Source of the DNA: Dyella sp. AtDHG13
Lineage (GTDB): Bacteria; Pseudomonadota; Gammaproteobacteria; Xanthomonadales; Rhodanobacteraceae
Direction: 5' to 3'
Assembly (NCBI RefSeq): GCF_003201105.1
Contig: NZ_QICJ01000008.1
Span: 1-64,000 of the forward strand
DNA length: 64,000 nucleotides
The translations under genes and the position numbers were made by a program. Of this stretch, positions 48,050-52,587 are shown in pieces (position 1 is the first letter of the stretch; each line of letters starts with the position of its first letter). Under the pieces are notes generated by a model. That model was not told where the DNA came from, did not search any database, and saw nothing but the letters and a program-made list of their open reading frames with translations.

Positions 48050-48447
48050 CGACGCGATGTGCCGCGCAGCGGCACGAGCCGTCGGCAGTCGCTCTTGATC
48101 TTCCGGATCCCCGTATGAGGCGGCGGGCGGGTGGAGATCAGGCCCCGCAGGGGTGCCTGGCATGGAAGCCAGGCACTTTTCGTCGGGGCAGGAGCCCCGT
48201 CGAAAAGCCCGGAACCCGTCCGCGCACCTATCGGGCTTTGCCCGATAGGTGCCTCATCCGGGGGGCCCTTCTCTTTGGTTACTTTCTCTTGGGCAAGCAA
48301 GAGAAAGTGACCCGACCTCCGGCAGGAGGTCGGAACGCTCGCCGCGTAGGCGGCACGGTCGCGGAAACGCTGGTAAGAGCCGATCAACCTCTACGCGACA
48401 ACCGAGCATAAAGTCGCTGGATCCCTGCCTCCGCAGGGATGACGGCT
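48050..48447 (+). repeat. Multi-hairpin structured repeat, copy 1
   Basis: This element of about 398 bp is closely related to 52187-52587. Hairpins, in order: 48059-48075 (7-bp stem), 48153-48176 (9 bp), 48177-48206 (12 pairs with a T-T mismatch), 48225-48251 (12 bp, loop TTT), 48277-48312 (15 bp with one U-G wobble), 48312-48333 (9 bp, loop GGCA), 48342-48355 (5 bp), and a terminal REP-like hairpin 48421-48440. The block around 48208-48343 is almost identical in both copies. No gene lies in 47830-48537. It lies upstream of the SulP gene on the opposite strand. Confidence 0.85.
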
Positions 48448-49245: not shown

Positions 49246-49320
49246 CCGTGGATGATGGCGGAGCGGCGCGCGCGGGGCCAGCGCCGGGAGTCATGGGTGT
49301 GATGTAACGCCGGGCGCATC

Positions 49321-49420
49321 CTCACCGTCATTCCCGCGAAAGCGGGGATCCAGTGTCTTTCGGGATTCACGGCGAAAATCAAAGACGCTGGATTCCCGCT
49401 TTCGCGGGAATGACGGTGAG
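49321..49420. repeat. REP pair in inverted orientation (REPIN-like)
   Basis: Two REP-like units at 49326-49355 and 49386-49415 are inverted relative to each other and share the flanks CTCACCGTCATTCCCGCG and CGCGGGAATGACGGTGAG. Each forms its own hairpin around GAAAG or TTTCG. The spacer is about 30 nt. The gap between the YafY-type gene and the GFA gene contains this repeat and the DnaA-box pair, and no other gene I can support. Confidence 0.88.
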
Positions 49421-49554
49421 GGATTTCACCGCAGCGGGTCACTTCAGGCCGCCTGCTTCGCCAGCGCATCGAGCACGGTACGAATGCTGACGGAACAGCT
49501 GCCCGCTGCGTAATGGAACGCGACGCTCGATGTGCTCATAAGGTTCTCGCGAAC

Positions 49555-52072: not shown

Positions 52073-52186
52073 AGTGAACTCGCCACCTTGCGGCAAGACA
52101 CTCCTGTAGCGTGGTGTTCCATCTCCACAACAGCACGCTCCAACCAACGCGTCATTTCTGCTCCAAGGCCGGCGCTCCGCCAAACG

Positions 52187-52587
52187 CGACGCGATGTGCC
52201 GCACAGCGGCACGAGCCGTCCGCTCGACGCTCTTGATCTATGGGTCCTCGTATGAGGCGGCGGGCGGGTGGAGGAATAGCCCGAAGGGTGGCTCGCAGGG
52301 ATGCGAGCCAGTTTGGCGTCAGGGCAGGATGCCCTGTCGACAAACCCCGTAACCCGTCCGCGAACCTATCGGGCTTTGCCCGATAGGCGCCGATTCCGGG
52401 GGGGCCCTTCTCTTTGGTTACTTTCTCTTGGGCAAGCAAGAGAAAGTGACCCGGCCTCCGGCAGGAGGTCGGAACGCTCGCCGCGCAGGCAGCCAGGTCG
52501 CGGAAGCGCTAAAAAGTGCCGAACACACTCCCACGCGACAACCCAGCACAAAGTCACTGGATCCCGGCCTTCGCCGGGATGACGGCT
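52187..52587 (+). repeat. Multi-hairpin structured repeat, copy 2
   Basis: This copy of about 401 bp is homologous to 48050-48447 over its whole length and in the same orientation. Hairpins: GTGCCGC/GCGGCAC at the start; 52289-52310 (9 bp); 52311-52345 (14 pairs, mismatches including the shared T-T); 52365-52387 (10 bp, loop TTT); 52416-52451 (15 bp with the same U-G wobble); 52451-52472 (9 bp with a G-U where copy 1 has A-U); and terminal REP-like 52561-52580. The rest of the gap 52073-52750 holds no gene I can support. Confidence 0.85.

Follow-up and report, generated by a model that had tools for sequence, protein, structure and literature searches.

The question raised by this locus is what maintains a repeat of some 400 bp that occurs twice within the window (the whole 64,000-nucleotide stretch of the Dyella sp. 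AtDHG13 genome analysed here) and in both copies folds into hairpins. The first-pass annotation of this DNA had offered two readings, a structured RNA and a mobile-like repeat, and both retain support. The explanation that we consider probable is that of an interspersed relative of the TwoAYGGAY RNA, which would be made by read-through at the 3' ends of genes and would bind CsrA; its transcription, CsrA binding, regulatory effect and mechanism of mobility we infer.

Parts and fold of the element

Copy 1 spans 48050-48447 on the + strand, a 398-base query composed of a 5' hairpin, the core, the hairpins P6 and P7, a variable tail and a REP-like end. Copy 2 (52187-52587, + strand) aligns with the whole of this query at 85% identity, in agreement with the end-to-end alignment first claimed, and the pair swaps remarked between the two copies are all present, two in P3b, one from G-C to A-T in P4 and, in the REP-like stem at the end, one from T-A to G-C, together with a T-T mismatch within the P4 stem of both. 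The covariance model R1, which covers the core (P1-P5), scores this domain at 176.1 bits in copy 1 (48108-48265, + strand; genome E 4.7e-29) and at 142.1 bits in copy 2 (52245-52403, + strand; E 9.3e-23).

According to the fold model this core is a multibranched domain, in which the long-range stems P1 (48109-48122 paired with 48250-48263) and P2 (48123-48132 paired with 48214-48223) enclose the hairpins P3a (48144-48153), P3b (48154-48175) and P4 (48176-48207), with a further hairpin, P5 (48227-48249), alongside, all on the + strand. Most pairs of P1 and P2 are shared by the RNAalifold consensus of 97 distinct Dyella cores and the fold of minimum energy computed for copy 1, and both stems covary, as do P3b, P4 and P5; P3a shows almost no variation, and upper P1 is broken in some copies. 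P3b is distinguished in addition by the conservation of its loop, A-N-GGA-N at 48162-48167, and P4 carries the loop AGGA at 48190-48193; in copy 2 the P3b GGA and the P4 AGGA lie at 52299-52301 and 52326-52329 of the + strand. The earlier description of the element as a chain of hairpins is therefore sound as regards folding but not as regards a plain chain, since P1 and P2 close a branched domain.

The + strand of 48108-48334 folds at -148.6 kcal/mol (z -9.7), a stability equalled by none of 200 dinucleotide shuffles, and the - strand is about as stable (z -9.4), which near-palindromic stems would lead one to expect. The RNAalifold consensus comprises 40 pairs, 22 of them with both-sided changes, the long-range stems included. 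That an RNA-like fold is maintained we regard as near certain. Downstream of the core on the + strand, P6 (48277-48312) is common to the element and to a divergent partner, arm B; P7 (48312-48333) is seen in the fold of copy 1, and the terminal REP-like unit (48410-48445) is 81% complementary to a unit at 49325-49360 and has additional stand-alone matches elsewhere in the genome. A separate inverted pair of the REP-like unit, with 41-nt arms that are 95% complementary and spaced by 20 nt, occupies 49320-49421. At two other loci (L038 and L063) GGCTCTT tandem repeats stand immediately 5' of the core in place of the usual 5' hairpin.

Covariation and the probable strand of the RNA

Whether the fold is maintained, as claimed, and the repeat is more than duplicated DNA can be judged from a model-fitted alignment of 120 copies, 119 of them distinct. 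In this alignment, which was fitted to the structure and hence leans towards it, both-sided changes occur at 56 of 57 pairs and 93.9% of cells are paired across the distinct copies, as against 39.5-45.7% in slid controls, while the covariation score is 0.488 (slid partners 0.055-0.072, shuffles 0.125). By a tree-based null (a simplified test of our own in the style of R-scape, not R-scape itself, with a cut-off of E<0.05) 38 of the 57 stem pairs covary, compared with 2 of 12,033 other column pairs, and this excess supports the claim together with the spread of copies over genomes given below. The pairs concerned are distributed over P4 (10/13), P2 (9/10), P3b (7/8), P5 (7/10) and P1 (5/13), with none in P3a (0/3), because that hairpin is nearly invariant. 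An unfitted and smaller alignment, confined to Dyella, yields just three significant pairs, all Watson-Crick and situated in P3b and P4.

Wobble pairs bear on the strand. Cells with G-T number 175 and those with A-C 45 (478 and 371 expected on random dealing), an excess that resides mainly in P1 and P2 (145 G-T and 27 A-C cells), P4 being unbiased (2 and 3). Among single-step changes away from Watson-Crick pairing 71 lead to G-T and 29 to A-C (binomial p 3e-5), and on account of this single-step excess the + strand is likely the RNA strand. In P3b and P4 together G-T occupies only 10 of 2,494 cells and changes are mostly both-sided, so that some of the changes in these two hairpins may stem from block exchange or template switching.

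This last feature, unlike ordinary RNA selection yet compatible with template switching, leads to a DNA-level alternative, which we rate as rather unlikely. The element would then be a REP/BIME-like or foldback mobile repeat using single-stranded DNA hairpins for movement, its RNA would be incidental, and the paired changes would have arisen through template switching or block exchange. However, the wobble intermediates with which P1 and P2 covary are not predicted by a constraint acting on two strands, and fixed loops with free N positions fit a protein motif. Were this alternative true, the element would provide a strong example of stems that change in pairs although ordinary RNA selection is not at work, and a warning for the discovery of RNAs by covariation.

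Copies, sites and neighbouring genes

With 150 candidates scored per genome, the Dyella sp. AtDHG13 genome (5.10 Mb, 32 contigs) contains 31 full-core copies (E 4e-22 or better) and three extra marginal matches, two of which are the antisense of listed copies; the same scoring gives 64 and 47 copies in two other Dyella genomes (G002 and G006), 13 in G140 and 9 in G116. The search across Xanthomonadales that the first-pass annotation had advised finds copies in all 20 Dyella genomes and, among 151 genomes of the order, full-length matches to R1 in 28. By DNA search, matches are present in every Dyella genome (the host and 19 others) and in 39 of 61 relatives overall, some of them possibly through the REP-like end alone. 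R1 also gives full-length matches in 18 of 274 genomes of the class, two of which are already among the order's 28, and in 4 of the 299 phylum genomes searched, all four from Xanthomonadales and none outside Gammaproteobacteria; since 9 to 19 candidates were scored per genome in the order, class and phylum searches, copy counts there are lower bounds.

Pattern matches (L181, L194, L200) occur also in a MAG labelled Eremiobacteraeota, perhaps through contamination or transfer. The phage sequences searched gave no match to the element, and among plasmids a single record matched, only over 51 bases of P6; this record, the fusobacterial Ilyobacter polytropus plasmid NC_014633.1, has the P6-like stretch at six places, with 88% identity. 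Five of 30 host loci (L004, L007, L011, L017, L023) lie near a contig end; it is probably the repeats that interrupt the assembly.

Many copies are paired. Arm B is present, divergently, in 13 of the 25 host copies with enough upstream sequence, and has P6, P7 and the tail in common with the element and a conserved head that differs, which suggests modular heads; a probable remnant of it lies on the - strand at 52076-52163, with 73% identity over 89 bases to another copy's arm B region. Elsewhere both arms fit R1, in nine divergent pairs in G002 and five in G140 (none in G006), while G048 has three convergent pairs and G116 has tandem neighbours, with three cores about 395 bases apart at C1:2265529-2266482.

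Occupancy of sites varies between species. Of 20 Dyella, 2 carry a copy no more than 1,500 bases 5' of the patatin gene, and in 15 of the 18 without one fbp adjoins the patatin gene with no element between. The yafY-sulP spacer, which is the site of copy 1, holds a core in 4 of 20 Dyella, always directed at yafY, a headless remnant in G002 and, in others, is short. The copies at these sites in the host, G016 and G019 each have their nearest matches among the copies of their own genome, and those in G003 and G007 are indistinguishable from copies of related genomes, a pattern that would fit movement, gene conversion or both.

The multiplicity of copies, their divergent inverted pairs, the REP-like unit at the terminus, the variable sites and the resemblance of the window copies and the G019 copy to others of their own genome all speak for the DNA-level alternative. 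Against it, no Y1 transposase (PF01797) was found in the host genome, and no target-site duplication was established: where occupied and empty sites were compared for the terminal inverted repeats and target duplication of a MITE or insertion element, the divergence and nesting of the spacers obscure the junctions. RAYT was rejected as a candidate on the PF01797 search (0 of 1 host genome, with 5 of 14 control genomes positive). The structured, multi-copy and paired character of the element, with near-identical copies within genomes, might likewise recommend a role as guide or template RNA in some transposition system not yet recognised; we hold this very improbable, and inspection by eye of the ORFs of 12 non-Dyella stretches disclosed no common protein partner.

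Genomic context was assessed for 30 of the 31 host copies and for 40 of the 82 pattern matches from named genomes. Host copies with both neighbours called (n=25) lie between convergent genes in 14 cases and co-directional genes in 11, never between divergent ones; the named-genome copies (n=40) divide into 19 convergent, 18 co-directional and 3 divergent, as against 44, 112 and 49 among background spacers (n=205). Apart from this position at 3' ends there is no sense preference in orientation relative to neighbouring genes. The avoidance of divergent-promoter spacers again favours the DNA-level alternative, and the frequency of convergent neighbours, like the very stable fold, would suit an element that, placed between convergent genes, terminates transcription in both directions or stabilises RNA, CsrA having no part in it. 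Such a function on its own appears unlikely to us, since near-invariant loops and covariation in P1 and P2 are needless for stability alone, and the terminator-like matches returned by consensus scans of the window copies are located within the element and are hardly more numerous than in shuffled sequence (3 vs 0.7). A protein-coding role was considered and rejected: the overlapping ORFs that cross the element are spurious, and a codon-score caller placed a gene on 0 of 30 host and 0 of 40 named-genome copies.

Fixed loops, CsrA and known systems

The loops of P3b and P4 look like the CsrA/RsmA motif. Over the Dyella tree the A, G, G and A of the P3b loop A-N-G-G-A-N have undergone no change and its two N positions 27 and 18, while the positions of the P4 AGGA have changed 1, 1, 1 and 2 times. 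Of 97 Dyella cores, 95 contain the word C-A(N)GGA(N)-G twice; of the 120 copies, 99 have two loop words, 12 have one and 9, all non-Dyella, have a third (shuffle mean 0.3). For distant copies the invariance of the loops is in part a circular result, since these copies were recovered with a model that includes the loops, and within the Dyella set, where 44 of 152 columns are invariant, the loops are not alone. In CsrB, according to PMC7652899, the corresponding repeats are CAGGA(U/A/C)G, SELEX gives RUACARGGAUGU, and the hexaloop is ANGGAN. The CsrA of the host genome is canonical in possessing L4 and R44, whose roles are named in the same source (PMC7652899). Of 44 genomes tested for the gene csrA, 40 have it; among carriers of the element the proportion is 34 of 38, among non-carriers 6 of 6, and the four carriers that lack csrA are 73, 81, 86 and 95% complete. 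Since the gene occurs in all the non-carriers and is missing from four carriers it does not discriminate, and its presence is compatible with the CsrA reading and no evidence for it.

Binding of CsrA by the element RNA is nonetheless predicted as likely from the loop motifs. In the proposed explanation a branched RNA domain of about 158 nt on the + strand, at the heart of the element, would present the loops of the adjacent hairpins P3b (A-N-GGA-N) and P4 (AGGA) at a distance of about 24 nt, which a single CsrA dimer could span by binding to each. Its RNA would derive mostly from read-through of the upstream gene, as a 3'-UTR-type transcript. At both window copies consensus scans returned 0 promoter-like sites, which also counts against the proposal. 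By binding CsrA the RNA could act as a decoy that lowers free CsrA, or could recruit CsrA locally to the mRNA in which it lies. Of the features by which CsrA-sequestering sRNAs are recognised, the element has multiple GGA motifs in hairpin loops, and the combination of own promoter and terminator was not found at the window copies. A bolder version, possible but tentative, holds that dispersed read-through copies jointly titrate CsrA in Rhodanobacteraceae as a self-spreading sponge, replacing the CsrB/RsmXYZ genes of which Xanthomonas is described as having no homologue (PMC7694677), with copy number setting CsrA activity. Should CsrA binding be true, apparent intergenic palindromes would be a multi-copy regulatory RNA that ties repeat turnover to a global regulator, and the TwoAYGGAY-CsrA proposal would gain a tractable, non-pathogenic host, copy numbers ranging from 9 to 64 over the five genomes in which they were counted.

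No description of the element was found in the open-licence literature, and Rfam yields no family above threshold either in the 64-kb window (best RF01721, 27.1 of 50 bits) or at 20 Dyella loci, which also gave no Rsm-type match at E<=1. Outside Dyella, among the 34 distinct places scanned, some of which are duplicated by three additional loci, TwoAYGGAY (RF01731; threshold 43 bits) is passed by both arms of L136 and L137 (65.5, 60.7, 49.1 and 46.5 bits), distant loci from two genomes that are matched by the same R1 model, and is approached by L133 (40.6 bits) and L117 (37.4 bits). RsmW (RF02809) is matched below threshold in L109, L110, L132 and L133 (best 40.6 of 52 bits, L109). The first-pass statement that no described family was known thus stands for the Dyella copies, which are below threshold, but not for the distant members. 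The bona fide TwoAYGGAY RNAs at L136 and L137 are themselves in divergent pairs, an architecture not limited to Dyella.

Several known systems invite comparison. REP/BIME sequences are likewise intergenic, numerous, palindromic and located at gene 3' ends, and the element has a REP-like end unit, but it is much longer, with a long-range paired domain, in a host genome without a Y1 transposase gene. RsmW, RsmY/RsmZ and CsrB-type sRNAs share the ANGGA loops in hairpins; these are products of one or few dedicated genes with their own promoters, whereas the element is dispersed and lacks a promoter-like site at the window copies. RsmU, from its description, is similar in being a 3'-UTR-derived RNA with GGA motifs that sequesters RsmA, and differs in being reported only in Xanthomonas (PMC7694677). 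The reverse complement of Bacillaceae-1 (RF01690) has also been proposed as CsrA-binding (PMC4333381); this family resembles the antisense of P3b-P4 below threshold (25.6 of 35 bits in window copy 2, 32.2 in L089) and consists of two hairpins only. TwoAYGGAY (RF01731, clan CL00106) was described as probably an RNA, from the human gut, gamma-Proteobacteria and Clostridiales (PMC2864571), and in 2014 was proposed to bind CsrA (PMC4333381). Like the element it has two neighbouring GGA-loop hairpins within an outer stem; the Dyella copies, which fall below its Rfam threshold, differ in their branched P1/P2/P5 frame, P6 and P7, REP-like tail, divergent pairs and tens of copies per genome. The element is, on these sequence likenesses, likely a relative of the TwoAYGGAY/Rsm-type RNAs, and may lie within the TwoAYGGAY/RsmW-type RNAs or form a divergent extension of them.
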